Source: Sulfitobacter sp. HNIBRBA3233 | Lineage (GTDB): Bacteria; Pseudomonadota; Alphaproteobacteria; Rhodobacterales; Rhodobacteraceae | Assembly (NCBI RefSeq): GCF_040149665.1 | Contig: NZ_JBEFLP010000001.1 | Location: forward strand, 2,046,001 to 2,110,000 | DNA: 64,000 bases | Direction: 5' to 3' | Shown: piece after piece, positions 43,569 through 61,546 of the stretch | How positions within the stretch are numbered: the stretch's first letter is position 1 | Layout: every line of letters starts with the position of its first letter | The notes under the pieces: generated by a model | The model's database searches: none | What the model was told of the DNA's origin: nothing | What the model saw: the letters and a program-made list of their open reading frames with translations, nothing else | Position numbers and translations under genes: made by a program

Positions 43569-44173
43569 TTACACATGATGCCGTCCTGCGCGATGACGAG
43601 GACGACAAGAATACCAAACATCCAGAACGCAGGACCGAAGGTCACCGTCGCCAGATCGGCGACCTTTACCAGCGCGACCGCGCATCCCAAAACAAAGATT
43701 TCCGCCATCGACCACGGGCGCATCGCCTCGGAAATGCGGAACGCGCCCATGGCGTGGCGCGCGGGCGGACGGTCGAGCACAACGGGCACGAGGACATAGA
43801 GGTTGAGCAGCATCCGCAGCAGCGGCACGAAAAAGATGAAGCCCGCTGTCAGCAGTGCGATCACCAAAAGCGGCCCTTCGGTGAACGACAGCGCCGCATC
43901 GAGAACGGAAACAGCGTTGCTCCGCCCCGCGACCGAGATCGACAGGAACGGAAAGACACTGGCCGCGACGATCAGGATAACGACGGCGATAGACACCGCG
44001 ATGATATGCTTTCCTGCCTTGTGGCGCGGCGCGATCAGCACCTTGTGGCAGCGCCCGCAGACCGCCTTCTGATCGTTTTCCGGATGCTCAAGCACATAGG
44101 CGGCATCGCAGACCGGACAGACGATGATCTGGTCCAGCGGCACGCTGTCAAAAGGGGCGGAAACGGTGCTCAT
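43526..44173 (-). CDS. pqiA: PqiA domain protein, first half
   Basis: 215 residues. Zinc ribbon CPVC...CGRC (about residues 19-42) then four membrane helices (IAVSIAVVILIVAASVFPFL is the first). Equal to the N-terminal half of PqiA. ATG 44173 chosen because it directly precedes the soluble zinc-ribbon part. First gene of the pqi operon. Confidence 0.85.
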   Translation of the reverse strand: MSTVSAPFDSVPLDQIIVCPVCDAAYVLEHPENDQKAVCGRCHKVLIAPRHKAGKHIIAVSIAVVILIVAASVFPFLSISVAGRSNAVSVLDAALSFTEGPLLVIALLTAGFIFFVPLLRMLLNLYVLVPVVLDRPPARHAMGAFRISEAMRPWSMAEIFVLGCAVALVKVADLATVTFGPAFWMFGILVVLVIAQDGIMCKWSVWNSLEHPQKS

Positions 44174-44255
44174 CGGGGGACCATAGTACGAAAAGACGCA
44201 AAGGTGTACACCCTTCGCACCGCCGATGACCGATGGTCGCAGGGGCCGACCCAAG

Positions 44256-44297
44256 GGAACAATTTCGGGCAGGAACGTGTTTTTCCGGTGAAGCGTC
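44256..44297 (+). promoter_or_regulatory. Candidate EcfG-type promoters of the PfpI gene
   Basis: Two overlapping near-matches to GGAAC-N17-CGTT: GGAAC at 44256-44260 with TGTT at 44278-44281, and GGAAC at 44272-44276 with CGTC at 44294-44297. Each misses one base of the -10 element. The first leaves a leader of about 30 bases with AAAGGAG before ATG 44319. Inference from motif only. Confidence 0.4.
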
Positions 44298-44318
44298 TAA
44301 CGCACAAAGGAGAACACA

Positions 44319-44879
44319 ATGACCAAGATTACCGAGAGCAAGATCCTTATCATCGCCGCCAACGGCTTCGAGCAATCCGAACTTGAGCATCCACGCGACG
44401 CATTGCGCGAGCGCGGCGCCACGGTGCATATCGCCTCGCCCGACGGCAAGGCCGTGAAAGGCTGGGACGAAGACGACTGGGGCCGCGAGGCGCAGGTCGA
44501 TCTGAAGATCGCAGATGCCGACATCTCGGACTACGATGCGCTGGTCCTGCCAGGCGGCCAGATCAATCCGGATCTTTTGCGCGTCAACGACGACGCGGTG
44601 AACCTGATCCGGCATTTCGGCGAGCAGGCCAAGCCGATTGCCGCCATTTGCCACGCACCATGGTTGCTGATCGAAGCGGGTCTCGTGCGGGGGCGCAAGG
44701 CAACATCCTTCCACTCCATCCGCACGGATATGGAAAACGCCGGTGCCTTCTGGGAAGACAGCGCAGTCGTGGTGGACAAGGGCATCGTGACCAGCCGGTC
44801 GCCCGAAGATCTGGAAGTGTTCGTCAACGCACTTGTCGAAGAGATCGAGAACGGATCCTTCGGCCGCGCCGCTGCCTGA
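44319..44879 (+). CDS. DJ-1/PfpI family protein
   Basis: 186 residues. Class I glutamine-amidotransferase-like fold with the nucleophile elbow AAICHAPWLL (cysteine near residue 108) and the glutamate in NGFEQSELEHP. The SFHSIRTDMENAGAFW segment is typical of the YhbO/PfpI stress branch, linked to repair of glycated proteins or general stress. ATG 44319 with AAAGGAG. Monocistronic, with its own terminator. Confidence 0.92.
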   Translation: MTKITESKILIIAANGFEQSELEHPRDALRERGATVHIASPDGKAVKGWDEDDWGREAQVDLKIADADISDYDALVLPGGQINPDLLRVNDDAVNLIRHFGEQAKPIAAICHAPWLLIEAGLVRGRKATSFHSIRTDMENAGAFWEDSAVVVDKGIVTSRSPEDLEVFVNALVEEIENGSFGRAAA

Positions 44880-44902
44880 TAGCTGCCAGACACTGTGAAA
44901 TC

Positions 44903-44928
44903 GGCCCGCCCCGCTGGCGGGCCTTTTT
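44903..44928 (+). terminator. Terminator of the PfpI gene
   Basis: GGCCCGCC (44903-44910), loop CCGCT, GGCGGGCC (44916-44923), then TTTTT to 44928. The last bases reach the end of the convergent CoA-transferase gene. Confidence 0.92.
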
Positions 44929-46049
44929 CATGCGATGCTGCCGTTTTTGCGCAAATCGGCGATCCGCGCGTGGCCATAGCCCAGTTCGGCCAGCACAGCG
45001 TCGGTATCCGCCCCCGGCGCAGAGGGCGCGCGCGGCGTGTCCGCAGAAGTGCGGCTGAACCGTGGCGCCGGTGCTGCCTGCGCGACGCCGCCCGGCGCGA
45101 TGAACGTGCCCCGCTGGGCCAGATGCGGGTGATCGGCGGCTTCGGAAAACCGCAAGACCGGCGCGACACAGGCGTCCGAGCCCGCGAAGATGTCCGACCA
45201 CTCGTCGCGTGTGCGCTGCGCGAAGGCGGCCGCGTAGGCCGCGCGCCGTTCGGCCCACTGCGCAGTGTCGTTCTGATCGTCCTGATGATCGAGCGGCAGG
45301 CCCGCTTTTTCCAGCAACAGCGCGTGAAACTGCGGCTCGAGCGCACCTACGGAGACGAATCCGCCGCATTTGCACATGTAGCAGCGGTAGAACGGCGCAC
45401 CGCCGTCCAGCCAGTTGGCCTGCCTGTCCTCGCTCCAGCTACCGCGGGCGAGCATGCTGTGGATCAAGCCCATCATCGCGCTGACACCGTCGACCATGGC
45501 GGCGTCCACAACCTGCCCTTTGCCCGACACACCACGTTCGATCAGTGCCGACAGGATGCCGAACAGCAGGAACATCGTCCCGCCGCCGTAATCCGCGACA
45601 AGGTTCAGGGGCGGCGCGGGCGGGCGGTCTGCGTCACCCATGGCAAAAAGCGCACCGGTCAGCCCCAGATAGTTGATGTCATGCCCCGCGACCTGCGCCC
45701 CGGGGCCGTCCTGCCCCCATCCCGTCATCCGCGCGTAAACAAGTGTGTCGGGGCAGTCCTCAGGCCCGAGGCCAAGCCGTTCCATCACGCCCGGACGGAA
45801 CCCTTCGATCAGCACATCGGCGGAGGCGACCAGATCATGGGCCGCCGCAACGCCCTCCCCGGATTTGAGGTTCAGAACCACCGAGCGTTTTCCGCGGCGG
45901 TTGATATCGGTGGGATCGGCCTTGGCGGTTGCGCGATCCACGGCGATCACGGTCGCCCCCAGATCGGCCAGCAGCTGCCCCGCCAGCGGCGCGGGGCCGA
46001 GACCGGAAAATTCGATGATGCGCAGCGACGACAGCGGCCCCGCCATCAT
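44928..46049 (-). CDS. CaiB/BaiF CoA-transferase family protein, alpha-methylacyl-CoA racemase type
   Basis: 373 residues. Begins PLSSLRIIEFSGLGPAPLAG. Residues used by methylacyl-CoA racemases are visible: R85 in EGFRPG, H123 in AGHDINYLGL and D153 in ADYGGGTM. This suggests racemisation of a 2-methylacyl-CoA rather than CoA transfer, though the family is hard to split by eye. ATG 46049 overlaps the C45 enzyme stop by four bases. Last gene of the seven-gene minus-strand run. Confidence 0.85.
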   Translation of the reverse strand: MMAGPLSSLRIIEFSGLGPAPLAGQLLADLGATVIAVDRATAKADPTDINRRGKRSVVLNLKSGEGVAAAHDLVASADVLIEGFRPGVMERLGLGPEDCPDTLVYARMTGWGQDGPGAQVAGHDINYLGLTGALFAMGDADRPPAPPLNLVADYGGGTMFLLFGILSALIERGVSGKGQVVDAAMVDGVSAMMGLIHSMLARGSWSEDRQANWLDGGAPFYRCYMCKCGGFVSVGALEPQFHALLLEKAGLPLDHQDDQNDTAQWAERRAAYAAAFAQRTRDEWSDIFAGSDACVAPVLRFSEAADHPHLAQRGTFIAPGGVAQAAPAPRFSRTSADTPRAPSAPGADTDAVLAELGYGHARIADLRKNGSIA

Positions 46050-47017
46050 GCCGCCCCCGGCAACAGGACTTCGCGCGCGCCTTCGGCGAAATCCTTCAAC
46101 GACAGGGGCCAGACAACGCCGGGCCAGCGCAGCTCCATCTCCTGTTTGCGGGGCCTGTAGACAGCGGTGTAAAGCGTGCCGAAGCCCTGATTGAATGCTG
46201 TGGAGTAAAGCGGCGGCTTCAGAAATGCCCCTATGAACTTTTCTTCCGGGTCACGGTGCAGTCGCAGCCGCTGGAGCAGGAAGCGCTCACGCTCGACCGT
46301 TGAGGTGAACCGCGCGTGGCTGATCCATTCGACGTTCTCCTGATGGTTTGTCGCCACAGCCGCGCGGGTCACGACCGCAGGGCGGTCCGGCGCCATCATC
46401 ACCGTCAGGTAACTGCGATTCTTGTCCAGCACCGTGACGTTATAGCTCATATGCGTGGGCACGCGGGCCAGCACCTCGGCCGCCTCTTCGGAAGTTGTGC
46501 AGGTCTGCAATGCGTAGCGCAGGATCAGCGGCACGCCAAAACCTTCGCCCACGACCCGCCGCCCACCGAAGGTCAGCGAGATCGAAAGCCCCTTGTCATT
46601 CACCCCGTCGACAAGGCCCCAGAGCCCGTCTGACACGCCCATCACGCGCCGCCCCTGCCAGCGCGTGCGCAGCACGAGGCTGTCGAATGCCTTGGGGTTA
46701 TAGTCGTAATTGCGGACCATGACGGGCTGCTTTCCGGCCCAGATCGCCTGGCTACAGGCCGCGAGATAGGCCGGTGGCGTGTAGAAACTGAGGAACCGCG
46801 CGGCGTGGTCCCCGCCCCCCGCAAGCTCGCACAGCTCTTCGTAGAGCGGCACGAGTTCGGGCATATGGGTCTGCATCTGCCGGAGGCCTTCGGCATAGGT
46901 CGGGCGCGACGTCTCGCCCTCCCGCAGCCACCAGGCGCGGTAGTCGGACCAGTATTCACGGAAAAGCCCGGCCCACTTTGGACCGGGCAGATCTTCGGAT
47001 ATCGCGCGCCAGTACAT
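46046..47017 (-). CDS. C45 family autoproteolytic acyltransferase/hydrolase
   Basis: 323 residues. N-terminal-nucleophile fold of the acyl-CoA:6-aminopenicillanate acyltransferase family: an 87-residue propeptide, the nucleophile C88 in AACSQAIW, then VMVRNYDYNP and MGVSDGLWGLVDGVNDKGL, both typical of the family. It is expected to cut itself before C88 and then hydrolyse or transfer an amide-linked acyl group. No signal peptide, so cytoplasmic. Natural substrates of bacterial members are mostly unknown. Coupled to the racemase-like gene. Confidence 0.88.
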   Translation of the reverse strand: MYWRAISEDLPGPKWAGLFREYWSDYRAWWLREGETSRPTYAEGLRQMQTHMPELVPLYEELCELAGGGDHAARFLSFYTPPAYLAACSQAIWAGKQPVMVRNYDYNPKAFDSLVLRTRWQGRRVMGVSDGLWGLVDGVNDKGLSISLTFGGRRVVGEGFGVPLILRYALQTCTTSEEAAEVLARVPTHMSYNVTVLDKNRSYLTVMMAPDRPAVVTRAAVATNHQENVEWISHARFTSTVERERFLLQRLRLHRDPEEKFIGAFLKPPLYSTAFNQGFGTLYTAVYRPRKQEMELRWPGVVWPLSLKDFAEGAREVLLPGAA

Positions 47018-47041
47018 GGGCGGCCTTTCCCAGAACAGGGG

Positions 47042-48499
47042 TTACATGATCTTGAACGCCGGATCGGCGAGGTCGGGTGCCGCTTGTGCCACCGGCAGCG
47101 GCTTGCCGTCAACGGCGCGTTTGATCCCGTGGATCCATTTCTTCGCACGCTCGTTCAACTGGAAGCTTTTGGTCATCGACCGCCCCCGTGTCACGAGGAT
47201 ACCGATGTCGGCGCCTTCGTAGCGATAGTCGCCCGGTTGCAGGATCCGCAGGAAGAAGGCTTCGTTCTCGCTCTCTACCGCGCGGCGGTGATAATCGAAG
47301 CGGTCGAACACGACCGAACCGTCCTCTTTCATCTTGTAGATGCCGGTTTCGGGGGCCTGCGTGCAGATATCGACACTGTCCTGCGTGTGCTTGATGACCA
47401 TCTGGCTCCAGCCGTCGATGTTGGCCGGATCGGCCCAGCGCGCATTCAGCTCGTCCACGTCGAGGTTGAATTTCTTTTTCGAGAATTCAAGCAGGTGGAA
47501 AAGGAATAGGGGCGCGTCCGCATGGGCAAACGCGGCGTGGTTGGTCATCGAAGACGCACCGGTGATGCGCGGGTTCAGCTCGCCCAGCCACAGATCGCCC
47601 GTCTTCTTGTCGATCAGGAAATCGAGCTCGAAATACCCGCGGTATCCTTCCTTGCGCAGCTGTTCACCGAACTTGAAAGTCATGTCGCGGGCCTGCTGGC
47701 GGACCTTCGGCGGGAAGGCGGTGGCAAGCATCTCGTTGCCGCACCAGCCGCCCCGGTAGGGCGTCAGCTCCTTGAAACCGACGAGCTCGGTCATCAGCGG
47801 ACCGACGATCGTGCCTTCCTTGGTGGCGCAGGCCTCGATCGCCGCGCCGCGGCAGTTGATCCGCTTCATGATCTTGATCTCGCCCTCTCCGATGATCTCG
47901 GACTCGTGGCGACGGAAGTCTGCCTCGTTCTTGATGAAGAAGGTCGTGTGGCCACTGTCGCCAAAAGCAGATTGCAGCACCAGATCGTGACCGAGGTTCT
48001 CTTTCTCGCAGACCTCGCGCAACTGTTCGTAGGACGTGACCTCGGCCAGAGCGTTCGGCACGGAGGGCACGCCGGCCTTGTTGCCGATGCGGACGGTTTC
48101 GATCTTGTTGTCCATCGACTGGCGCAGCTTGGCCTTCGGGAACCAGACATCGGCGCCCAGTTCCTTGGACAGGCGTTCTGTTTCCTCGTCGAACATCAGG
48201 AAGACGAACTTGGGCTTGCCGCCACGCTTCTTGATGTAGTCGATGACTTCCTTGTGCTGGAGCAGGTAGTTGTTGATGTCCTCGATGGACTGGAACTCTG
48301 CGTGCGGCTGCTCGGACGGGACGAAGGTGTTCGGGTGCTTGCCGCTATAGCAATCGATATAGCAGATGTATTTGAAATTCTTACACCATTCGTCGAGGCC
48401 CAGCAGGTTGAAGTTTGTGGCCGAGATAAAATAGACGGGGTCTTCGTTGCGGTGAAAGAACCGGCGGATTTCCGAGATATTCTTTAGTACGGTCGCCAT
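47042..48499 (-). CDS. ATP-grasp ligase of unknown substrate
   Basis: 485 residues. ATP-grasp core in the middle: lysines around DNKIETVRIGNKAG, the glycine-rich loop FGDSGHTTFF (about 179-188), and the metal-binding GELNPRITGASS with E307 and N309. Such enzymes join a carboxylate, through an acyl phosphate, to an amine. Databases tend to label relatives biotin carboxylase, but no carboxyltransferase or biotin carrier is near. The C-terminal 120 residues (QAPETGIYKMKEDGSVVFDR) are unlike classical ATP-grasp enzymes. 24 bases before the C45 gene. Confidence 0.82.
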   Translation of the reverse strand: MATVLKNISEIRRFFHRNEDPVYFISATNFNLLGLDEWCKNFKYICYIDCYSGKHPNTFVPSEQPHAEFQSIEDINNYLLQHKEVIDYIKKRGGKPKFVFLMFDEETERLSKELGADVWFPKAKLRQSMDNKIETVRIGNKAGVPSVPNALAEVTSYEQLREVCEKENLGHDLVLQSAFGDSGHTTFFIKNEADFRRHESEIIGEGEIKIMKRINCRGAAIEACATKEGTIVGPLMTELVGFKELTPYRGGWCGNEMLATAFPPKVRQQARDMTFKFGEQLRKEGYRGYFELDFLIDKKTGDLWLGELNPRITGASSMTNHAAFAHADAPLFLFHLLEFSKKKFNLDVDELNARWADPANIDGWSQMVIKHTQDSVDICTQAPETGIYKMKEDGSVVFDRFDYHRRAVESENEAFFLRILQPGDYRYEGADIGILVTRGRSMTKSFQLNERAKKWIHGIKRAVDGKPLPVAQAAPDLADPAFKIM

Positions 48500-48539
48500 G
48501 GTGATACTCCTTGTCGGTATTCGTGGGCATTTGCCCTAT

Positions 48540-51272
48540 TTATTCTGCGGCCTTGAGCTTGGGGCTGACCCCGTCCAATGCCTCTTTGGTGAAGACCCTG
48601 AGCCCTAGATCGGGCCGGTATCCGTGAATTTCGCTCACATCCAGCGCCCGCATAAAGCTGAGAATTTCCTTGCTGATGACCTGGCCGGGCACGAGGATTG
48701 GAAATCCGGGCGGATAGGGGATGATGAATGACGCCGATACGATCTCTTCGCCCCGCTCCATCGCCTCTTTCAGCGATCCGTCGAGTTCCAGATAGTCACA
48801 GTTGCGGTCGTCATAGGCGAGGAAGAACGCCGTGCGGATATCCCCTTCCCGGCTGTTGCCGTGGGACAGGAACGCGCGGTGGAAGCGGCTGAAATCGGGC
48901 AGCGGCGGGCAGTTTTCCAGCAGGTTGTGGACCCTGCGGTCGAAGGCCATCTTTTCCATCCCGCTCGCGTCGTCGTTCAGATCGTCCAGCGATTTGGCGA
49001 TCTCGACCAGCACCTCGATCAGGTAGGCAACGGACGACCGTGTGGTGCCGATATTGGTCATGAACAACACGGTATTGCGCGACGTCTTGTTGATCTGGAT
49101 GCCGTATTTATCCATCAACACCTTGTTCTTGAACGTATCCCCGTCCCAGCCGGTCCCACCGACCAGCAGCGTGACCCGAGAGGCATCGAGGACGAATTCG
49201 TCCCGCTCCCAGCACTCCCACAGATCGGTCCAGCCCTGTTCGGTATCGTAGTAGCTGGTCACGCCGCTCTCGCGGTGCTCTTCCGGGATCATATCGCCGG
49301 CGGTGAGAACCTTGAAATACTTGCGCAACAGCGGGTGGTCGCTGATCGCGCGGCGCATCGACATCGCCGCCTCGATCTGGCGCTGGACGAACTCGAACCC
49401 TTCCAGTTCGACCTGCCGGCGGCCCACATCAAGCGACGCGATGATCTGGTAGTTTGGCGAGGTCGACGTGTGGGTCATGTAGGCTTCGTGGAAGGATTGC
49501 TCCACCTCGCCTTTGAAGTCCTGATCGTTGACGTGGATCATCGACCCCTGCCGCAGGGACGTCAGCGTCTTGTGCGTGGATTGCGTCGAATAGGCCCTTA
49601 CCCGTGCAGTCGGCGGCGGGATCAGACGGGTTTTGATAAGGGTCTCGTGGTCCGCATCCTTCAGCTTTTTCTGCTGCTTCTCGTAGGCCTTGGCATGTGC
49701 TTCCGACCGGAACCGGGTGCGCAGAGTGTTGGCCGCGTCCATCGCCGTGCGCTGGCGGTAGGTCGGGCTGAACCGGGCAAAGGCGAACCATGCCTCGTCC
49801 CACAGGAAGATCAGGTCCGGCTTGATCGCCAGACACTCCTCCATCACGCGCTGAACGTTATAGACCAGACCGTCAAAGGTGCAGTTTGTCAGCAGCAGCA
49901 TCCGGACACGGTCCAGCTTGCCTTGGTCTTTCAGCTCCAGCAGGCGCTCTTTGATCTCGCTGAGCGGCACCGCGCCATACATCGAATATTTGCTGAGCGG
50001 ATAGCTGTCGAGATAGCTGACCTGCGCGCCCGCCAGCACCATGCCGTAGTGGTGCGACTTGTGGCAGTCGCGATCGACCAGCACGATGTCGCCGGGTTTC
50101 AGCAGGGCCTGCACGACGATCTTGTTACAGGTCGACGTGCCATTGGTGGCAAAGAAGGTCTGCTTTGACCCGAAGGCACGCGCCGCAAGCTCCTGCGCCT
50201 CTTTGATGGGGCCGTGCGGCTCAAGCAAACTGTCCAGCCCGCCGGAGGTGGCCGATGTTTCGGCAAGGAAGATATTCGGCCCGTAAAACGCGCCCATATC
50301 CTGAATCCAGTGCGAGCGCGTGATGGATTTGCCGCGGCTGATCGGCATGGCGTGGAACACGCCCGTGGGCTGCTTGGAATACTCGACCAAGGCGGTGAAG
50401 AAGGGCGATTTGTTGCGCGCCTGCACACCGCGCAGGATGTTGAGGTGAAGCTCCATGAAGTCTTCGGAATTGTAGAAAACCCGCCGGCAAATCCCCAGAT
50501 CGAGGCCCGCGATCTCTTCGACCGAACGCTCGGTCACAAGATAGGCGTCGAGTTCGGGACGCACTTTCGCGATCATTCGGCACAGCTCGGGGCCGTAGTT
50601 TTCCGGTTGCAGCGCGTCGATCTCGTCCTGCCCCCCTGCGCGAGCCAGATAGCGGGTCAGGATCTCTTCGACCTTTTCGGAATGCAGGGTCAGGCCCGGG
50701 CGGACGACAATCGCCTGGATGTTATGGTTGAACATCACCGCGATCAGCGCGTCCTCGATCGACGGCACCACGACCGCCTCGTAGACAAACGGATCTTCGG
50801 GGCGGCGCATCGAGGTCACGTTGGATTTCAGCCAACGCTCCTGATGCTCGTTCACACTGTCGACCACCAGCACTTCGAAATAGGGCTTCGACAGGGCGCG
50901 CATTTCGGGCGAGTGATGTGCCTCGTCGTCCTGCTCTTCCTGATCGACACTGTCGCGTTCCAGCGGAATGGACCGGCGGCGATAGGCACCCGTGGTCAGC
51001 GCGCGGGTGACGCGGTTAACGGCAAAGCTGACATCGTCGAGCTTGCCCTGATCGAAATGCCGCCGCATCTGGTTGAAGGACGAAACACCGGGAAACGCCC
51101 AGTAGTGCTCCATCATCGAAAGCGATTCGAAAAGATCGGTCACCGTGGAGCGCAGGTGCGCGCTTTCTGCGGCGCTGGGGTTGCGGGTCAGGGCGGCGGT
51201 CGCCTCGCGCAGCGCGCTCCACCGGTCGGAGCGCAGCTGGATCGCTGACGAATATTCTCTCATAGACTGCAT
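48540..51272 (-). CDS. Orn/Lys/Arg-type PLP decarboxylase, long form
   Basis: 910 residues, against roughly 710-760 for enterobacterial family members. About 310 N-terminal residues include a receiver-like domain (YFEVLVVDSVNEHQERW), then the fold-type-I PLP domain: FFATNGTSTCNKIVVQALL, DRDCHKSHHYGM, the aspartate in IFLWDEAWFAF (about 492) and the PLP lysine K568 in STQSTHKTL. The spacing between this aspartate and lysine is long (76 residues, including a charged helix). Ends IHGYRPDLGLRVF. Decarboxylates a basic amino acid to an amine. ATG 51272 follows GGAG. Confidence 0.88.
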   Translation of the reverse strand: MQSMREYSSAIQLRSDRWSALREATAALTRNPSAAESAHLRSTVTDLFESLSMMEHYWAFPGVSSFNQMRRHFDQGKLDDVSFAVNRVTRALTTGAYRRRSIPLERDSVDQEEQDDEAHHSPEMRALSKPYFEVLVVDSVNEHQERWLKSNVTSMRRPEDPFVYEAVVVPSIEDALIAVMFNHNIQAIVVRPGLTLHSEKVEEILTRYLARAGGQDEIDALQPENYGPELCRMIAKVRPELDAYLVTERSVEEIAGLDLGICRRVFYNSEDFMELHLNILRGVQARNKSPFFTALVEYSKQPTGVFHAMPISRGKSITRSHWIQDMGAFYGPNIFLAETSATSGGLDSLLEPHGPIKEAQELAARAFGSKQTFFATNGTSTCNKIVVQALLKPGDIVLVDRDCHKSHHYGMVLAGAQVSYLDSYPLSKYSMYGAVPLSEIKERLLELKDQGKLDRVRMLLLTNCTFDGLVYNVQRVMEECLAIKPDLIFLWDEAWFAFARFSPTYRQRTAMDAANTLRTRFRSEAHAKAYEKQQKKLKDADHETLIKTRLIPPPTARVRAYSTQSTHKTLTSLRQGSMIHVNDQDFKGEVEQSFHEAYMTHTSTSPNYQIIASLDVGRRQVELEGFEFVQRQIEAAMSMRRAISDHPLLRKYFKVLTAGDMIPEEHRESGVTSYYDTEQGWTDLWECWERDEFVLDASRVTLLVGGTGWDGDTFKNKVLMDKYGIQINKTSRNTVLFMTNIGTTRSSVAYLIEVLVEIAKSLDDLNDDASGMEKMAFDRRVHNLLENCPPLPDFSRFHRAFLSHGNSREGDIRTAFFLAYDDRNCDYLELDGSLKEAMERGEEIVSASFIIPYPPGFPILVPGQVISKEILSFMRALDVSEIHGYRPDLGLRVFTKEALDGVSPKLKAAE

Positions 51273-51357
51273 CGGTCGTTCTCCGCGTGTTTTGCGGCTG
51301 GCCTGATGCACCTTGCGATTCGGGGGCAGCGAAACCGCGGCCCCCGATAGGTACGGC

Positions 51358-52479
51358 CTAGCCGCTTGATGTTGGCTCGTTATGCGCGGAGCCTGTCAGG
51401 ACACCGGGCTTCACGGGTGGGTTTGGCGTTCCCGGGGTGGGAACAGCAGCTGTTTCTTGTGTGGCCGGTGCGGCGGTTCCTGCCGTCGGGTTCGGCAAGG
51501 GTTCGGGCGCGAAGGCAGGCGGCACCTTGTGGGCAAAGCCCGGCAGGCTGTCCTGTCCGGCAAAGGACGGTGCCTGCGGGACACGCATCGCCGGTTCGGA
51601 GGCGTCCAGCCCCGCCAATGTGCCCTGATGCGGCACTTCGAGCGGGCCAAGGGTGCGCAGATATTCATCTGTACCGCTGGTCCGGTCGTAGACCGAGAAA
51701 TCGGTGGCGCGGTCGCGGAAGGATTTCAGAACCTGCCCGAGGCCCTTCATGCCGGTTTCACGCTGGCGGCGCACCAGATCGAGATCGACTTCGATCGGGA
51801 ACATATCTTCCTGACCGGCGGACTGGTGCAGCACCATGGATGTCGGATCCACGACGCAGGATTTGCCCACGCCACCGGCACCGAGCCCGTTCACATCAAT
51901 GACATAGCACTGGAACTGCGCCGCGGTTGCGCGGGCAATGGCCAGTTCGGCATCGCGGTCCGTGGTACCGGTCAGAACCGGGTGCAACAGCACCTCGACC
52001 CCCTGGCTGGTCAACTGGCGCGTGGTTTCGGGGAACCACATGTCATAGCAGATCGACAGTCCGAAACGGCCCACTTCGGGCACGTCGAAGACGCAGAAAT
52101 CTGTCCCGGCGGCGATCCCGCTCTCGTAGGGGCGGAAGGGAAACATTTTCGCGTAGCGGCGAATGATCTCGCCCTCGGGGTTGATCACGAAAGACGTGTT
52201 GTAGATGCGGCCGTCTTCGGGATCGGTGATGAACATCGACCCGGGGATCAACCAGACACGGTGCTTGGCGGCCGCGGCCTGGAACTTCTCAAGCTCTTCG
52301 TTTTCGGGCGGCAGCGAATAGCGGTCCAGCGGGCCCAGCGGCGCCAGTTCCGAGAACAGCACCATCTGCGTCCACGGGAATCGTGCCATAAGGATATCCA
52401 GCCGCTGGATCATACCATCGACGTTCGATTGCAGCGCATTTACGTACATCTGTACGCCCGCGATTGCGAAAGGTGTCAT
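51358..52479 (-). CDS. Carbon-nitrogen hydrolase (nitrilase superfamily) with Pro/Ala-rich tail
   Basis: 373 residues. The catalytic triad is complete: E44 in FSELAPLG, K111 in YAKMFPF and C144 in LSICYDMWFPE. This is an amidase-type hydrolase (aliphatic amides, N-carbamoyl amines or nitriles). After about residue 290 the protein changes to a low-complexity proline/alanine/threonine tail (PLPNPTAGTAAPATQ, TPGTPNPPVKP) of about 80 residues. ATG 52479 with GGAG upstream. 85 bases before the decarboxylase gene. Confidence 0.88.
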   Translation of the reverse strand: MTPFAIAGVQMYVNALQSNVDGMIQRLDILMARFPWTQMVLFSELAPLGPLDRYSLPPENEELEKFQAAAAKHRVWLIPGSMFITDPEDGRIYNTSFVINPEGEIIRRYAKMFPFRPYESGIAAGTDFCVFDVPEVGRFGLSICYDMWFPETTRQLTSQGVEVLLHPVLTGTTDRDAELAIARATAAQFQCYVIDVNGLGAGGVGKSCVVDPTSMVLHQSAGQEDMFPIEVDLDLVRRQRETGMKGLGQVLKSFRDRATDFSVYDRTSGTDEYLRTLGPLEVPHQGTLAGLDASEPAMRVPQAPSFAGQDSLPGFAHKVPPAFAPEPLPNPTAGTAAPATQETAAVPTPGTPNPPVKPGVLTGSAHNEPTSSG

Positions 52480-52618
52480 AACTCTTCACTCCGTGAATCC
52501 GGGACAATCCCGTTTGGACCTGTCCATACGCCTTTTGGAGGGGCGATGAAACAGGCCAAGCGGGGAAGTGCCGTAACGAAGTTGCAGGTCAGGTATGTCA
52601 TTTTGGCGCCGGTGATCC

Positions 52619-55390
52619 CTACGCCGTGGCCCGACGCCCGGCGGCGCGGCTGTTGCGGCCGCGCTGCAGCATCACAACAGCGGCCAGCAACAGAAGGGCC
52701 GGAATGAACATCAGGTACTTGCTGGGCTGCGATTGGGGCTGCAACACGCGCAGCACTTCCTGATCCCAGTCAAGCCCCGCGTTCTGTGCAGGCGAATTGA
52801 AGGCAACATCGTCAATGATCATGCTGTCCCCATCCTGACGGAAGACCAGCCCGGCCTCTTCCAGACGCTCTTCGCCGCTGCCTGCGGCCCCCATTTCCAC
52901 AAGCGCCACGAATTCGATGGGATCACCGAAACTGTCGCGCCCCGCCACACGGATGCGCAACGGCTCACCCACGGGGGTCGCCTCGGCGGCGGCAGCGATC
53001 TCGGTCGGCTCCGCCTCGATATAGGGAGGCGATACCATATCCATCCAGAACCCGGGACGGAACAGCGTGAACGCGATCAGCAGCAGCGCGATCGTCTCGT
53101 AGAAACGGTTCTTGGCAAGGAACCAGCCCTGGGTGGCGGCGGCGAACAGCAGCATCGCCACCGTCGCGATGATGAAGACGAATATACCCTGCGCCCAGGT
53201 CACATCGATCAGAAGCAGTTCGGTATTGAAGATGAACAGGAACGGCAGCGCGGCTGTCCGCAGGCTGTAGAAGAAGGCGACAAAGCCCGTCTTGATCGGG
53301 TCGCCGCCGGACACGGCAGCGGCGGCAAAGCTTGCCAGTCCGACAGGCGGCGTCACATCGGCCATGATGCCGAAGTAGAACACGAAGAGGTGCACCGCGA
53401 TCAGCGGCACGATAAGCCCGTTCTGCTGTCCCAGCGTCACGATCACGGGCGCAAGCAGCGCCGAAACGACGATATAGTTCGCCGTTGTCGGCAGCCCCAT
53501 CCCGAGGATCAGCGACAGCACGGCGGTCAGCGCAAGGATCGCGAGGATATAGCCCCCCGACAGAACCTCGACCACATCGGCCAGTGCGGCACCCACGCCA
53601 GTCTGGCTGACCACACCCACGATGATGCCCGCGGTCGCTGTGGCAATGCCGATGCCGATCATGTTGCGCGCGCCCGTCACCAGACCGTCGATCAGGTCAA
53701 GAAAGCCGTTCTTGACATCGGTGGCGAACTGGCTTTCGCCGCGGAACATCGCCATCAGCGGACGCTGCGTCAGCAGGATGAAGACCATGTAAGCCGTCGC
53801 CCAGAAGGCCGACAGGCCGGGCGACAGACGGTCCACCATCAGCGCCCAGACCAGCACCACCACCGGCAGGATATAGTAGAGGCCCGAACGGATCGTGGGG
53901 CCGGGCAGCGGCAGTTTCGTGACCGGCGCATTGGGATCGTCCAGCTTCAGCGGCGGCTCTTTCGATGCGACGCGCAGAAGCAGCACATAGACGAGGGTCA
54001 GGAAGGCAAAGATGATATAGCCAGCGGTTTCGGGGAAGGCAGGGCGGATCCAGCCCATGCCATAGTAGACCGCAAAGCTCAGCGCGCAGATGACCGCGAT
54101 GGTGAAGGCAAGCGACATCAGCCACGCGACCCACGGCTTGGGCTCAACCGGACGCGGCAGCCCTTCCATCCCCGCCTTCAGCGCTTCGAGGTGCACGATG
54201 TAGACCAGCGCGATGTACGAGATAACGGCGGGCAGGAAGGCGTGTTTGACCACGTCGAAATAGGCGATGCCGACGTATTCGACCATCAGGAAGGCGGCTG
54301 CACCCATCACCGGTGGCATGATCTGCCCGTTGACCGAGGACGCGACCTCGACCGCGCCGGCCTTTTCCGAGGAAAAGCCGACTTTTTTCATCAGCGGAAT
54401 GGTGAACGTCCCCGTGGTGACCACGTTAGCGATGGAGGAGCCCGAGATCAGACCGGTCATCGCCGAGGAAACCACCGCGGCCTTCGCAGGGCCGCCCTTC
54501 ATGTGGCCCATCAGGCTGAATGCGACCTGGATGAAGTAGTTACCCGCGCCAGCACGGTCCAGAAGCGATCCGAACAGGACGAAAAGAAAGACGAAGCTTG
54601 TCGAGACACCCAGCGCGATGCCGAAAACACCCTCGGTGGTGATCCACTGGTGGTTTACGATCTCGCTCAGGCTGTTGCCCTTGTGGGCGATGATGCTGGG
54701 CATCTGCGGGCCAAGGACGGTGTACATCAGAAAGACGCTCGCCACGATCATCAGCGCGGGACCAAGCGCGCGGCGGGTTGCTTCGAGCAGGATGATGATA
54801 CCGACGACGGCAACCACGTAATCCTGTGTGATCGGCGCACCGACACGGCCCGCAATGTCGCGGTAGAACATGAACAGATAGAGCGCGGCACCGGCACCGG
54901 CGAGGGCAAGCACCCACTCCCAGATCGGCACGCGATCCTTCGGAGAGCCGAGGACCACTGTTGCCGCAACGGCCAGCGCGGGGATCGGAATCCACCATGT
55001 CGCGGTGCCGTCCTTGGCGCTGATCATGAACAGGGCCGCCAGCGCCAGCGGGACAATCACCCCAAGCGCAAGCTGGAATTTGGTACGCGCCGCCGGAAAC
55101 ACCATGATGCCAAGGAACACGGCAAACCCGAGGTGGATGGAGCGTGCGAGCGTGTCGTTGAAAAGCCCGAAGGGCGACGCGATGTAGAGCTGGAACAGCG
55201 ACCAGGCGAGCGCGACGAGAAGCAGAAGGATGCCGACCGGTCCGGAAACGGAACGCCCACCGGTATCGGAAGAGGCAACCAGTTCGTCCAGTTCATCCTG
55301 GCTTAGGCCACCACGGCTGCCCGTCGCTTCGGTTTCGACCCTTGCAGCCTGCTGCTGGTACTTCTGGTTGTCGTTTTCCTGATCGGTCAT
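52619..55390 (-). CDS. TRAP transporter fused 4TM/12TM permease (TAXI type)
   Basis: 923 residues. The small and large membrane subunits are fused, as is normal for TAXI systems, giving roughly 18-20 helices. The large-subunit signature GLISGSSIANVVTTGTFTIP and LGMGLPTTANYIVVSALL are clear. The N-terminal 45 residues are hydrophilic. After about residue 770 a non-membrane DUF3394/PDZ-like part follows (DDVAFNSPAQNAGLDWDQEV) and a final helix. Sodium- or proton-coupled uptake at the inner membrane, with the receptor encoded just upstream. Confidence 0.93.
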   Translation of the reverse strand: MTDQENDNQKYQQQAARVETEATGSRGGLSQDELDELVASSDTGGRSVSGPVGILLLLVALAWSLFQLYIASPFGLFNDTLARSIHLGFAVFLGIMVFPAARTKFQLALGVIVPLALAALFMISAKDGTATWWIPIPALAVAATVVLGSPKDRVPIWEWVLALAGAGAALYLFMFYRDIAGRVGAPITQDYVVAVVGIIILLEATRRALGPALMIVASVFLMYTVLGPQMPSIIAHKGNSLSEIVNHQWITTEGVFGIALGVSTSFVFLFVLFGSLLDRAGAGNYFIQVAFSLMGHMKGGPAKAAVVSSAMTGLISGSSIANVVTTGTFTIPLMKKVGFSSEKAGAVEVASSVNGQIMPPVMGAAAFLMVEYVGIAYFDVVKHAFLPAVISYIALVYIVHLEALKAGMEGLPRPVEPKPWVAWLMSLAFTIAVICALSFAVYYGMGWIRPAFPETAGYIIFAFLTLVYVLLLRVASKEPPLKLDDPNAPVTKLPLPGPTIRSGLYYILPVVVLVWALMVDRLSPGLSAFWATAYMVFILLTQRPLMAMFRGESQFATDVKNGFLDLIDGLVTGARNMIGIGIATATAGIIVGVVSQTGVGAALADVVEVLSGGYILAILALTAVLSLILGMGLPTTANYIVVSALLAPVIVTLGQQNGLIVPLIAVHLFVFYFGIMADVTPPVGLASFAAAAVSGGDPIKTGFVAFFYSLRTAALPFLFIFNTELLLIDVTWAQGIFVFIIATVAMLLFAAATQGWFLAKNRFYETIALLLIAFTLFRPGFWMDMVSPPYIEAEPTEIAAAAEATPVGEPLRIRVAGRDSFGDPIEFVALVEMGAAGSGEERLEEAGLVFRQDGDSMIIDDVAFNSPAQNAGLDWDQEVLRVLQPQSQPSKYLMFIPALLLLAAVVMLQRGRNSRAAGRRATA

Positions 55391-55466
55391 CGCTTTTTCC
55401 CCTGCGTGAGCCAGGGACGCCTGATGCGCCCGGGCCCCTAGATGTGCCGCTTTGTGCGGTCACAGC

Positions 55467-55497
55467 CTGCGGCCGGCCCCCTGAGGGCCGCCCGCAG
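55467..55497. other. Hairpin between the TAXI receptor gene and the permease gene
   Basis: CTGCGG(C)CGGCCC at 55467-55479 folds on GGGCCG(C)CCGCAG at 55485-55497 with a short loop. No T-tract. It lies 24 bases after the receptor stop, so it may stabilise the receptor message or attenuate read-through into the permease. Confidence 0.6.
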
Positions 55498-55520
55498 AAT
55501 TCGCTTTGACAGGTAGCGGC

Positions 55521-56480
55521 TTATTCGATCCAGCCACGTTCTTTGTAGTACTGCGCGGCACCGTCATGCAGTGGTGCGGACAAACCGGCCGAGATCATGT
55601 CTTCTTCGGTCAGGTTCTCGAACGCAGGGTGCAGGCGCTTGAAGCGGTCGAAGTTGTCAAAAACCGCTTTCACGACTTCATAAACCACTTCATCCGCGAC
55701 ATCGGCGGAGGTGACGAAGGTCGCCTTCACACCGAAGGTGTTCACGTCGCTGTCGGTGCCTTTATACATGCCACCCGGAATTGTCGCGGCAGCATAGTAG
55801 GGGTTGTTGTCGATCAGGCCCTGAATCGCGTCACCCTCTACCGGGATCAGCTTGGCATCGATGGTCGATACGGCTTCCTGAATGGAACCGTTGGGGTGAC
55901 CCACGGTGTAGATGATCGCGTCGACCTTGTTATCACCCAGTGCCGCAGCCTGCTCGGCCGGCTTCAGCTCGGATGCGAGGGCGAAATCGTCCAGCGTCCA
56001 GCCCTTGGCATCCATGACGACTTCCATCGTGGCGCGCTGGCCGGAACCGGGGTTGCCGATGTTGACACGCTTGCCCTTGAGGTCGTCAAAGCTTTCGATG
56101 CCGCTGTCGGCGCGGGCGATGACGTTGAACGGTTCACCATGGACGGAGAACACGGCGCGCAGCTTGTCGAACTTGTCACCCTCGAACTGCGAGGTGCCAT
56201 TGTAGGCATGGTACTGCCAGTCGGACTGGGCCACGCCCATGTCCATGTCGCCGGCCTTGATCGCGTTGATGTTCGCAATCGATCCACCGGTCGAAGGCGC
56301 CGTGCATTTCAGACCGGATGTATCAGAGTTGCGGTTCACCAGACGGCAGATCGACTGACCGACGACGAAGTACACGCCGGTTTGCCCGCCGGTACCGATT
56401 GTAATGAACTTTTCCTGCGCTGTTGCGGCAGTACCGGCAACCATTGCGCCAGCAAATGCCAGTGTCTTGAGCATCTTCAT
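55521..56480 (-). CDS. TAXI-family TRAP transporter solute-binding protein
   Basis: 319 residues. Signal peptide (ends GTAATAQE near residue 22), then the TAXI family start FITIGTGGQTGVYFVVGQSI. Other typical parts are STGGSIANINAIKAGDMDMG and NIGNPGSGQRATMEVVM. A periplasmic receptor delivering a small molecule (members bind glutamate, other organic acids or unknown compounds) to the fused permease. ATG 56480 with AGGGGAG. First gene of the seven-gene run. Confidence 0.94.
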   Translation of the reverse strand: MKMLKTLAFAGAMVAGTAATAQEKFITIGTGGQTGVYFVVGQSICRLVNRNSDTSGLKCTAPSTGGSIANINAIKAGDMDMGVAQSDWQYHAYNGTSQFEGDKFDKLRAVFSVHGEPFNVIARADSGIESFDDLKGKRVNIGNPGSGQRATMEVVMDAKGWTLDDFALASELKPAEQAAALGDNKVDAIIYTVGHPNGSIQEAVSTIDAKLIPVEGDAIQGLIDNNPYYAAATIPGGMYKGTDSDVNTFGVKATFVTSADVADEVVYEVVKAVFDNFDRFKRLHPAFENLTEEDMISAGLSAPLHDGAAQYYKERGWIE

Positions 56481-56851
56481 AGATGTAACTCCCCTTTTTG
56501 TTCGGGTCCCGCGAGATTGCGTTTCCCGTTATGCGGAGAAAGAACCGCCACACCCTCCTTGCGGGAATTTACCGGCGACAGGTGGTCCTCTCCTTCCACC
56601 CGCAAGCCTGTTTTGTGGCTCGTGAAGTGAAATCTAAGAGAAAGCCTAGGCAGCTTTGCGCGGATGAGCAAGGACTCTCTTATTTTGATCAAAACCGCGA
56701 AAAAATCCAACGCCTGAAGGGACCTGGACGCGGCCCGGGCGGTCGGCGGACCTGCCGCGCAGCTGATCCAAAGCGGACGCAGGGTTGCCAAACGCCCGTC
56801 CGGTACGCTCTAGATTGGCCAATCATCCGAGCTTTCCAAAGAGGGGCGAAA
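56481..56851. promoter_or_regulatory. Divergent promoter region, 370 bases
   Basis: Contains the promoters of the TAXI cluster (minus) and the FMN glutamate-synthase-like gene (plus). GAGGGGC at 56840-56846 is the plus-strand ribosome binding site. The middle (56620-56710) is AT-richer. I see no clear operator palindrome and no small gene. Confidence 0.5.
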
Positions 56852-59331: not shown

Positions 59332-59366
59332 GGCAATATCCGCCGAACCCGCCCCCAGAAAAGAGA

Positions 59367-59425: not shown

Positions 59426-60811
59426 TTACAGAACGCCGTCCGCGACTGCGGCTTTCAGCGCCTCTTCAAAGATCGCCAGACCTTCGTCGATGATCTCGTC
59501 CTCGGCGGTCAGCGGCACCATCACGCGCACTGCGTTGCTATGCATGCCGCAGCTCAGCAGCAGCAGACCACGCTCGAGCGCGTGCGCGATCAGCCGTTTG
59601 GTCAGCGCGGCATCGGGTGCGCCGCTTTCGAAATCCGTCACGAATTCGACCGCGACCATCGCGCCAATCCCGCGAATGTCCCACATCCGGAACGGAGCGG
59701 CGCGCGCGCCGATCTCGGCAAAGCGCGCTTTCAGCTTGTCACCCATCGCGGTGGAGCGTTCGAGAAGCTCTTCCTGCTCGAGCGCGTCGATGGCGGCCAG
59801 CGCCGCCGCACAGGCAACGGGGTTGCCGCCGTATGTGCCGCCCAGACCGCCGGGATCCATCGCATCCATCACTTCGGACCGGCCGATAACACCCGCCAGC
59901 GGGTATCCACCCGCCATGGATTTCGCCACGGTGATAAGGTCAGGCTCGACCCCTGTGTGTTCGATCGCGAACCAGGTGCCGGTCCGGCCAAAGCCCGCCT
60001 GCACCTCGTCGGCGATCAACAGGATACCGTGCTGGTCGCAAATCTCGCGCAGGGCGACCATCATCTCTGTCGGCACGGGGATGTAACCGCCTTCGCCCAG
60101 AACAGGTTCGATGATGATCGCGGCAACGCGATCCGGCTGTGCATCGGTCAGGAAGAGGTTCTTCAGACCTGTCAGCGCGTCCTCGACGGTGATGCCGTCA
60201 CGCAGGGACGGGAACGGCGCGCGGAACACATCCGCAGGGAAAGGACCGACGTTCTTCTTGTAGGGGGTGACCTTGCCCGTCAGGCCCAGCGTCAGCAGGG
60301 TACGGCCATGGTAGCTGCCGGTGAAAGCGATCACGCCCGGCCGGCCCGTTGCCGCGCGCGCGATCTTGACCGCGTTCTCGACGGCTTCGGCGCCTGTGGT
60401 GACCAGAAGGGTCTTCTTGGGGCTGTCGCCGGGGGCCAGTGCGTTCAGACGCTCTGCCAGTTCGATGTAGGGAGCGTAGGGAACGACCTGAAAGGATGTG
60501 TGCGTAAACAGGTCTTCCTGCGCCTTCGCCGCTGCGATGACGGAGGCGTGACGGTGACCAGTGTTGAGAACCCCGATACCGCCGACGAAATCGATGTAGC
60601 GGTTCCCTTCGACATCCCAAAGCTCGGCGTTTTCGGCGCGCGCAGCATAGACACCGGGCGCAGCGGACGCGACACCGCGCGGCACGGCAGCGTCGCGGCG
60701 GGCCACAAGATCAGCGTTGGTATAGGTCTTTGGGGCCGCTGTTTCCACGATCGAGATATTCGGCTGTTTTTTCGCGCCTTTGCGGGTCGCACGCTTTGCA
60801 GTACTGGCCAT
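59426..60811 (-). CDS. gabT: 4-aminobutyrate aminotransferase (class III)
   Basis: 461 residues. PLP enzyme: NTGAEAVENAVKIAR-type segment (here TTGAEAVENAVKIAR), FTGSYHGRTLLTLGLTGK, the aspartate in LLIADEVQAGFGRTG, and the Schiff-base lysine in ITVAKSMAGG. Converts GABA and 2-oxoglutarate to succinate semialdehyde and glutamate; close relatives use other omega-amino acids. The family start NADLVARRDAAVPRGV is preceded by about 32 extra residues, lysine/arginine-rich (ASTAKRATRKGAKK). Divergent from a PuuR-like regulator. Confidence 0.9.
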   Translation of the reverse strand: MASTAKRATRKGAKKQPNISIVETAAPKTYTNADLVARRDAAVPRGVASAAPGVYAARAENAELWDVEGNRYIDFVGGIGVLNTGHRHASVIAAAKAQEDLFTHTSFQVVPYAPYIELAERLNALAPGDSPKKTLLVTTGAEAVENAVKIARAATGRPGVIAFTGSYHGRTLLTLGLTGKVTPYKKNVGPFPADVFRAPFPSLRDGITVEDALTGLKNLFLTDAQPDRVAAIIIEPVLGEGGYIPVPTEMMVALREICDQHGILLIADEVQAGFGRTGTWFAIEHTGVEPDLITVAKSMAGGYPLAGVIGRSEVMDAMDPGGLGGTYGGNPVACAAALAAIDALEQEELLERSTAMGDKLKARFAEIGARAAPFRMWDIRGIGAMVAVEFVTDFESGAPDAALTKRLIAHALERGLLLLSCGMHSNAVRVMVPLTAEDEIIDEGLAIFEEALKAAVADGVL

Positions 60812-60884: not shown

Positions 60885-60985
60885 TTAATTGTCAATCGGG
60901 AAGATCTGGCGTCTTGCGTTTTTCCGCCGGCAGTGGTGATCTCTGCAAAAGCGCGCCGCTTGAGGCGCTGTATTTCCGACGAAGG

Positions 60986-61546
60986 ATGCCTCTCTTGGAC
61001 ATTGGTCAGCGACTTCGGGAAATCCGCATTCAGCGGGGTTTGTCCCAACGCGAGCTAGCTTCCCGCGCGGGTCTGACCAACGGGACGATCTCCTTGATCG
61101 AGACCGATAAAACCAGCCCGTCGGTCGCCTCTCTCAAGAGCCTTCTGGATGCGATACCGATCTCGATGGCCGAATTCTTCGGATCCATCGAGGATCCTGA
61201 TCTGCCAAAGGTATTCTACAGGGCGAACGAGTTCACCGATCTTGCGCCCGACGGTCCGGGCCAGGTGTCCCTGCGTCAATTGGGCAACGCCCGGGAGCAT
61301 CTTTTGCAGGTGCTCCACGAGACATACCCGCCCGGCGCCGACACCGGACCGGAATTCCTGTCGCATGACGGTGAAGAAGCGGGAATCGTGACGCGGGGCC
61401 AGATCGAAGTGACCGTGGGCGATGCGGTCGCGATCCTGGAAACGGGGGATGGCTATCTCTTCGACAGCCGCCTGCCGCACCGGTTTCGCAACGTCTCGAC
61501 GTCTCCCTGCGAGATCGTCAGCGCCCTTACTCCGCCCGTATTCTGA
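60986..61546 (+). CDS. PuuR-like regulator (XRE HTH plus cupin)
   Basis: 186 residues. Helix-turn-helix LSQRELASRAGLTNGTISLI near residues 20-40 and a C-terminal cupin with EAGIVTRGQIEVTVGDA and FDSRLPHRFRNVS. The layout and many positions match E. coli PuuR, repressor of putrescine use; the divergent gabT supports a GABA or polyamine ligand. The start may be ATG 60986 or, better spaced from GAAGG, TTG 60995 (protein beginning MDIGQRLREIR). Confidence 0.88.
   Translation: MPLLDIGQRLREIRIQRGLSQRELASRAGLTNGTISLIETDKTSPSVASLKSLLDAIPISMAEFFGSIEDPDLPKVFYRANEFTDLAPDGPGQVSLRQLGNAREHLLQVLHETYPPGADTGPEFLSHDGEEAGIVTRGQIEVTVGDAVAILETGDGYLFDSRLPHRFRNVSTSPCEIVSALTPPVF

Follow-up and report, generated by a model that had tools for sequence, protein, structure and literature searches.

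A co-inherited unit of nitrilase, decarboxylase, ATP-grasp and C45 genes in Sulfitobacter and its relatives, and its possible catabolic role

The Puu pathway of Escherichia coli K-12, from whose record the Puu gene names used here were taken, follows a logic of importer, ligase dependent on adenosine triphosphate (ATP), aldehyde dehydrogenase, amide hydrolase, gamma-aminobutyric acid (GABA) transaminase and regulator with cupin and helix-turn-helix (HTH) domains. A similar logic is proposed here for a gene cluster of Sulfitobacter sp. HNIBRBA3233, located in a 64,000-nucleotide stretch of contig NZ_JBEFLP010000001.1 (assembly GCF_040149665.1, positions 2,046,001 to 2,110,000 of the forward strand), which was analysed as a whole and is called the window. 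Four genes of this cluster are the subject of the present study: NIT, a nitrilase-superfamily C-N hydrolase; DC, a long decarboxylase dependent on pyridoxal 5'-phosphate (PLP); GRASP, an ATP-grasp ligase-like enzyme; and C45, an N-terminal nucleophile (Ntn) hydrolase of the acylase/acyltransferase type. ATP-grasp ligases phosphorylate a carboxylate and then condense it with an amine, as stated in excerpts of a study of E-64 biosynthesis, whose authors reasoned there that a PLP decarboxylase dedicated to the pathway might be encoded in clusters of this type (PMC12568646). No paper on a NIT-DC-GRASP-C45 cluster was found among open PMC full texts searched with combinations of the family terms; the component families are known, and the pathway is without a name in these texts. 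As a unit the cluster is well supported, and a function can be proposed for it only tentatively.

A conserved unit of four genes

The conserved unit consists of four genes, NIT, DC, GRASP and C45, and not of the seven that a preliminary description of the window had grouped together. One sample of 148 genomes of the host's order, with one genome per species among the sampled relatives, was searched with the four proteins. Each of them was found in the identical 32 genomes, the host genome included, with identities of at least 80% for GRASP, 71% for DC, 69% for NIT and 62% for C45. The preliminary description had named co-occurrence of the four enzyme families elsewhere as its own test, and the identical distribution bears this co-occurrence out. 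Weaker matches in the same 148 genomes were one for GRASP (46%, genome G109), two for DC (49-50%), one for NIT (55%) and 15 places for C45 (42-46%); GRASP matches below 30% identity were left aside. By the binomial coefficient, two sets of 32 drawn independently would coincide about once in 10^32 draws, a figure that is meaningless as a probability because the genomes are related. Ten genera, counted by hand from genus codes, hold both positive and negative species, and the four genes therefore change together at least that often. In 29 of the 31 relatives that were fetched, the four genes adjoin one another on a single strand. In locus L034 (genome G088) NIT is located just upstream of DC, past the edge of the fetched stretch, so that L051, where DC is two genes away, is the sole true departure, and the gene order is shared by 31 of the 32 positive genomes. 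NIT-DC-GRASP-C45 is almost certainly a real co-inherited unit.

The other members of the proposed seven-gene cluster vary between loci. TAXI and TRAP genes were present in 18 of the 31 related loci, although a gene that seems absent, of these or other types, may simply fall outside the stretch fetched. The importer was of the TAXI-TRAP, DctPQM, dipeptide ABC or amino-acid permease type depending on the locus, and the TAXI-TRAP importer is thus not a fixed cluster member. The CaiB-type gene was directly 3' of C45 in only 4 of 31 relatives, all of the same genus as the window. It was rejected as a member of the pathway and is regarded as a genus-level addition.

Matches to GRASP (E <= 1e-30) were found in 11 of 385 genomes sampled across the class and in 11 of 398 sampled across the phylum, the near relatives of the window counted in. 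A second GRASP clade of about 45% identity was studied in genome contigs through the best 80 of 551 relatives, ranked to a distant-clade query and not a random sample. Within 6 kb of GRASP in these 80 loci, C45 was found in 56, NIT in 43 and an amidase-signature gene in 20; NIT or amidase was found in 63 loci, 48 of which held C45 as well. The two hydrolase types nearly exclude each other at GRASP loci (n = 87: 61 with NIT only, 14 with amidase only, one with both and 11 with neither), as expected of one interchangeable step. Gammaproteobacteria assemblies carry the same families with amidase in place of NIT. The DC family appears again in the distant clade (L115, L116, L119, L122, L125, L127 and L129), and the association of DC changes at least three times along the GRASP tree, from whose counts locus absences lacking 5 kb on both sides were dropped.

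GRASP was also matched in 32 plasmid records, of which 11 were fetched. C45 followed GRASP in all 11 (one C45 being a broken fragment), DC was near in seven and NIT in six. Rhizobium leguminosarum plasmids bearing nif genes carry DC-GRASP-C45. On one of them (L189) the three genes, with a dipeptide-type ABC transporter and an amidase, adjoin nifHDKEN. On another R. leguminosarum plasmid (L179) DC and C45 are fragmentary and followed by transposase genes, with fix genes and nifA some kb further on.

For the study of neighbours, proteins from 129 sources were clustered, L052 being left out as a duplicate of L070. Models were run on cluster representatives only, and the remaining members take their names from BLAST clustering. 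The greedy choice of open reading frames (ORFs) missed GRASP in L038 and L046, where it was found by tblastn. A small conserved protein of about 115-155 residues (cluster 5) was observed beside C45 in the distant GRASP clade, in 40 of the 129 sources (for example L078:12020-12397). It carries the motifs WTVYFLVDGQW and LRREWSSLDRLEKWLR, and the two members scanned gave no Pfam match.

Seven minus-strand genes had been described at the positions collected in Table 1, and the ORF coordinates of the window bore this out. The domain calls also held, with Pfam or NCBIfam matches for TRAP, nitrilase, decarboxylase, ATP-grasp and C45; receptor and fused permease both scored over the cut-offs of their TAXI-TRAP models. 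The label of acyl-CoA racemase goes further than the data: the gene belongs to coenzyme A (CoA) transferase family III, no equivalog cut-off was reached and only the general CoA_transf_3 family and transferase/isomerase models under their cut-offs were matched. From the importer receptor onward the gaps are 130, 139, about 85, 40 and 24 nucleotides, followed by a 4-nucleotide overlap, so that the small gaps or overlaps described earlier are best true from DC on and less so upstream. The DC frame opens at 51311, and an ATG at 51272 behind GGAG is the likelier start.

Table 1. Features of the cluster and its recurrent neighbours (positions in the window)
Feature	Position	Strand	Evidence
TAXI-type TRAP receptor, periplasmic binding protein	55521..56480	-	TIGR02122 359.5 bits (cut-off 84.35); PF16868, NMT1_3/TRAP_TAXI
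Fused TRAP permease (DctM + DUF3394)	52619..55390	-	TIGR02123 653.9 bits (cut-off 320.65); PF06808; PF11874
NIT, nitrilase-superfamily C-N hydrolase (core)	51358..52479	-	PF00795 (CN_hydrolase) 102.8 bits
DC, long OKR-fold PLP decarboxylase (core)	48540..51272	-	PF01276 (OKR_DC_1) 247.4 bits
GRASP, ATP-grasp ligase-like enzyme (core)	47042..48499	-	NF005096 753.8 bits (cut-off 684); PRK06524
C45, Ntn-hydrolase acylase/acyltransferase (core)	46046..47017	-	PF03417 (AAT) 109.3 bits; NF040521 (C45_proenzyme) 181.9 bits (cut-off 85)
CaiB-type CoA-transferase family III	44928..46049	-	PF02515 (CoA_transf_3) 244.7 bits; 4-nucleotide overlap with C45
gabT-type GABA transaminase (GABT), PuuE-like, recurrent neighbour	59426..60811	-	TIGR00700 533.8 bits (cut-off 506.65)
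PuuR-like HTH-cupin regulator, recurrent neighbour	60983..61546	+	PRK09943 144.3 bits (under cut-off 211)

On the downstream side lie a DJ-1/PfpI gene in convergent orientation and, at 44903-44923, a terminator-like hairpin, which together bound the cluster. No terminator-like sites were seen by the terminator scan in the gaps between the cluster genes; over the scans, terminator-like sites (11 against a mean of 10.0) and promoter-like sites (0 against 2.3) were not above shuffled sequences. Rfam at gathering thresholds gave no match from 44000 to 62000. Two further observations concern the surroundings. Three consecutive genes at 40460-44254 on the minus strand, PqiB/PqiA-like by eye, encode an 828-residue protein and a pair of membrane proteins that carry Cys-rich motifs. 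A glutamate-synthase-like gene with flavin mononucleotide (FMN) binding, named after a Roseobacter ponti record, is located at 56834-58480 on the plus strand, divergent from the TAXI gene, and is near the core in 8 of the 31 related loci.

The core enzymes

Incomplete, short or stop-containing ORFs were dropped before motifs and residues were counted. GRASP scores above the cut-off of NF005096, a model named 'biotin carboxylase' (Table 1), and had no Pfam match at E 0.01. Its motifs GGW..G and GE.NPR are invariant. In 124 of 124 rows the latter site reads GE(L/I/V)NPR(I/V/L)(S/T)G and QVEH is absent, whereas L190, an ORF of the same genome judged by eye to be of the biotin-carboxylase type, reads EMNTRIQVEH at the aligned site. 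EMNTR.QVEH is the substrate signature of biotin carboxylases, and GRASP was rejected as a biotin carboxylase because this signature is missing throughout. A structure model of GRASP with a predicted local distance difference test (pLDDT) score of 89 has the ATP-grasp fold and gave 583 PDB matches at E <= 0.001. The 50 matches listed were all biotin carboxylases or carboxylases containing one, with template modelling (TM) scores, by query length, of about 0.5-0.6 and identities of 11-15%. The likeness of the predicted fold speaks only for membership of the ATP-grasp superfamily. An ATP-grasp amide ligase would be the natural alternative identity for GRASP, and this is probably what it is.

DC belongs to the OKR PLP decarboxylases by its OKR_DC_1 match and by a PLP lysine in the S-x-HK context. 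This lysine, K581 in ORF numbering, was kept in 34 of 34 rows, and the motifs STHK and WDEAW were kept as well. The closest PDB match was Rv2531c of Mycobacterium tuberculosis, a probable amino-acid decarboxylase (9n0n, 816 bits), over near full length. In lysine decarboxylase Glu526 was proposed to bind the substrate, according to an excerpt of PMC5607190. The residue of DC aligned with Glu526 of the inducible enzyme is Asn741 (ORF numbering). All 42 DC-family rows have Asn at this site, and the one canonical OKR row (L166) has Glu; judged by this residue, DC would not be a lysine decarboxylase. This gives a hint that the DC substrate may be neither plain lysine nor plain ornithine, and a hint rather than proof, because the role of Glu526 rests on docking and an older proposal.

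Eight loci were read in which DC (46-56% identity) stands without GRASP. Six of these adjoin one or two AspT-type antiporters (L163, L164, L192, L193, L194 and L196, DC identity 46-50%), and two have no AspT-type gene (L191 and L195). The AspT-type neighbours suggest an acidic amino acid as substrate for the AspT-linked DC branch only. These Rv2531c-type loci look like an acid-stress decarboxylase-antiporter system; the Rhizobium locus L194 was also observed to hold AspD and an HdeA/HdeB-type chaperone.

The nitrilase triad of NIT, E44-K111-C144, was kept in 79 of 79 rows, which places it in the nitrilase superfamily. Its tail past about residue 325 was unmatched in 20 of 32 genomes. No NCBIfam equivalog was reached by NIT; its top models were formamidase (66.5 bits, cut-off 406) and deaminated-glutathione amidase, NAD synthase reaching only 34 bits. 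C45 exceeds the cut-off of its family model (Table 1), with Cys88 as the nucleophile. Cys88, Arg102 and Asp105 were each kept in 98 of 98 rows, and residue 87 was Gly in 57 of the 98 rows and Ala in the window. The C45 model (pLDDT 94) was nearest to isopenicillin-N acyltransferase 2x1c at about 13% identity, followed by NAAA and acid ceramidase. Standalone C45 genes (about 37-46% identity) have neighbours unlike those of GRASP-linked C45. A second C45 type of about 37-44% identity (L167, L169, L171, L174, L175, L176 and L178) adjoins a protein of about 360 residues, and three of these loci also hold a protein of about 140 residues; GRASP was not seen nearby. In L169 the partners belong to the Esterase_PHB and RHH_8 families.

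Proposed function and its alternatives

Genes of GABA metabolism recur near the core. A GABT homologue was found in 22 of the 31 order loci, with an identity of at least 50% in 16 of them, compared to one of 16 control loci, the any-identity count including an aminotransferase type of 34% identity. A PuuR-like HTH-cupin gene was found in 17 of 31 order loci anywhere in the stretch, in 12 within 11 kb of GRASP, and in none of the 16 controls. The controls were centred on a C45 gene (14) or a DC gene (2) and came partly from the same genomes. In the window the transaminase was 51.8% identical to E. coli PuuE and the regulator 40% identical to PuuR.

Other loci place the core beside different pathways. 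L083, L084 and L095 (Shimia, Aliiroseovarius) carry GABT and a CaiB-type gene near the core. The latter is glutarate-CoA-transferase-like in L083 (531.5 bits, under the cut-off of 750), and acyl-CoA dehydrogenase and aldehyde dehydrogenase cluster members are also near in L083 and L084. On the Shinella-type plasmids L181 and L186, GRASP-C45 stands in one run with arginine-to-guanidinobutyrate genes, namely AruI (737 bits over a cut-off of 500 in L181, on which the models were run), an agmatinase family member, an aldehyde dehydrogenase, a D-amino-acid dehydrogenase, a racemase-like gene and RidA. In L069, DoeA and DoeB are followed by an AsnC-type regulator and then by NIT-GRASP-C45-DC; both ectoine-catabolism genes exceeded their cut-offs (670.2 over 613 and 491.4 over 402.7). 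The neighbour pathways across loci are those of GABA, 5-aminovalerate/glutarate, arginine/guanidinobutyrate and ectoine, and we infer that their common end-products are mostly omega-amino acids. Two further routes, for homarine and for lysine breakdown of the DavBA type, were weighed as well; of these, DavBA stays only as a clue from the glutarate genes.

The four core genes are gained and lost jointly in the order sample, their catalytic residues are kept, the importers vary and GABA-type genes are near. On this basis NIT-DC-GRASP-C45 may tentatively be read as a catabolic unit that makes and then breaks an amide bond while nitrogen-rich amino acids or amines are degraded, a reading to which we give somewhat less than an even chance. 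An importer would bring the substrate into the cell, and DC would strip the alpha-carboxylate from an amino acid, probably neither plain lysine nor plain ornithine, to give an amine or omega-amino acid. GRASP would use ATP to join a carboxylate to this amine through an acyl phosphate, in the manner of ATP-grasp ligases. The free end would be oxidised or transaminated before C45, with its cysteine N-terminal nucleophile, and NIT, or a substitute amidase-signature enzyme, hydrolysed the amide bonds. This would release GABA, 5-aminovalerate or another omega-amino acid, which GabT- and GabD-type enzymes would pass to the citric-acid cycle. This order of steps, with its transient acylation, is rather doubtful. 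By analogy the unit would be Puu-like in its logic of ligation, oxidation and hydrolysis, with unrelated enzymes. In the preliminary description the putative substrate was an acylated amine or polyamine derivative that would be imported and rebuilt. This proposal is partly supported: it agrees with neighbouring genes for a GABA transaminase, a PuuR-like regulator, an aldehyde dehydrogenase, an agmatinase family member and ectoine and arginine metabolism, and the parts of it that fell away are the CaiB gene and a constant importer.

Several points weigh against a catabolic unit of this kind. We know of no substrate, product or activity for GRASP. A gene like gamma-glutamylputrescine oxidase is not constant in the cluster, PuuB matches occurring in eight searched loci, and a Puu-type oxidation step would therefore be missing or be carried out by varying neighbours. 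GABT is lacking from the fetched stretch in 9 of the 31 order loci, and the Shinella-type operons have no DC beside GRASP. C45 was not found within 6 kb in 24 of the 80 best distant-clade loci, nor within 7 kb in 12 of 112 GRASP-tree rows with enough flank. The neighbour pathways point to different carbon skeletons, and the substrate that all loci share may therefore be another compound. Of the 148 order genomes, 147 have PuuA-like homologues of glutamine synthetase, so that there is no sign that GRASP replaces PuuA; presence and absence are uninformative on such a replacement, and the argument was dropped as useless. The activity of Rv2531c, the nearest relative of DC, was not known according to the part consulted of a 2026 review (PMC12910592).

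The best placed of the alternatives is an arginine-to-GABA route, which is nevertheless unlikely. DC would make agmatine, an agmatinase-family enzyme and NIT would remove the guanidino or amide group, and GabT would follow. Agmatinase-family cluster members were present in 7 of the 129 clustered sources (two of them scored with models), and the Shinella-type plasmids place GRASP-C45 between AruI, agmatinase-family and dehydrogenase genes. However, that operon is without DC and uses a different arginine route, the agmatinase-family cluster was not found in the remaining stretches, that of the window included, the Glu proposed to bind lysine is lost in DC, and GRASP and C45 are left without a role.

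A cycle like that of insect Black, Ebony and Tan is distinctly unlikely. Excerpts of PMC5085778 describe Black as an aspartate decarboxylase, Ebony as an ATP-dependent beta-alanyl-amine synthetase, and Tan as resembling isopenicillin-N acyltransferase and cleaving itself before a Cys. Here DC would turn an acidic amino acid into beta-alanine (or GABA), GRASP would conjugate this product with an amine or amino acid, Tan-related C45 would split the conjugate, and GABT would dispose of surplus beta-alanine or GABA. The predicted isopenicillin-N-acyltransferase-like fold of C45 with its invariant Cys88, the AspT-type aspartate-alanine antiporters beside DC in six of the eight GRASP-less loci and the Asn that replaces the Glu proposed to hold lysine's amine in 42 of 42 DC rows are consistent with such a cycle. 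Against it, Ebony is similar to nonribosomal peptide synthetases and GRASP is an ATP-grasp enzyme; L191, whose DC is the closest of the eight (55.7%), and L195 lack an AspT-type gene; and the AspT-linked DCs, about half identical to the GRASP-linked ones, may differ in substrate. The residue just before the nucleophile of C45, position 87, is Gly in 57 of 98 rows and in the window it is Ala, and the arginine, ectoine and glutarate neighbours are left unexplained. A widespread bacterial conjugation cycle of this kind, with a Rv2531c-type decarboxylase for acidic or conjugated amino acids, GRASP making omega-aminoacyl amides, and Tan-like C45 and NIT undoing them, would be just as improbable. 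If true, three enzyme families would gain a function together, and the cycle would also be present on certain nif-bearing plasmids of rhizobia and within operons for the catabolism of ectoine and arginine. As far as the literature searches show, its parts have not previously been put together.

Nitrilase-type domains, such as the glutaminase domain of NAD synthetase, and amidases such as GatA serve as glutaminase partners of ATP-dependent amidating enzymes. Because the NIT and amidase families replace each other next to GRASP, a glutaminase-synthetase pair is conceivable, in which NIT or amidase would free ammonia from glutamine and GRASP with ATP would amidate a carboxylate. L111, L114 and L133, with full flanks, hold GRASP and NIT without C45, in line with such a pair. 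It is quite improbable all the same: NIT scores best against formamidase and deaminated-glutathione amidase and weakly against NAD synthase, NIT and GRASP of the distant clade are often on opposite strands or kb apart, and C45 and DC are left unexplained.

A carboxylation pathway with GRASP as a true biotin carboxylase would account for the NF005096 score and the carboxylase-type fold matches, and is nonetheless highly improbable, given GE.NPR..G in place of EMNTRIQVEH in every GRASP row and the lack of biotin carrier or carboxyltransferase families among the neighbour representatives scanned. Least probable of all are chance neighbours or hitchhikers on mobile replicons without joint function, to which the patchy distribution and the plasmid locations, nif-bearing Rhizobium plasmids included, might point, whereas the identical distribution in 32 of 148 genomes, the same order in 31 of 32 and the fact that these families come together again in the distant GRASP clade speak against them.

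Comparison with known systems

The window contains no homologues of PuuA, PuuB, PuuC or PuuD at E 1e-12, and its cluster is not a Puu member because those of PuuA, PuuB and PuuD are absent. Unlike in the Puu pathway, the ligase would be of the ATP-grasp type, the hydrolases would be C45 and a nitrilase, and a decarboxylase is built in; the regulator scores below the PuuR model cut-off (144.3 versus 211 bits). E-64 biosynthesis, as far as the excerpts of PMC12568646 describe it, is similar in that an ATP-grasp ligase acts on compounds with decarboxylation-derived amines of the agmatine, putrescine and cadaverine type. It differs in being biosynthetic and fungal, and an importer, C45 or nitrilase was not seen in the description given there.

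A solved pathway might reveal a further way for marine bacteria to draw on dissolved organic nitrogen. With biotin carboxylase GRASP shares the fold of the ATP-grasp superfamily and differs in lacking QVEH, and an answer would also correct the misleading database name 'biotin carboxylase'. C45 shares the Pfam family AAT, the fold and the invariant Cys with isopenicillin-N acyltransferase, insect Tan and acid ceramidase, although the best fold match among such Ntn hydrolases is only about 13% identical to the C45 of the window. DC belongs to the same long OKR family as Rv2531c of M. tuberculosis (9n0n) and has the same Asn at the Glu526 site; a solved pathway could give the first substrate for this type of decarboxylase.

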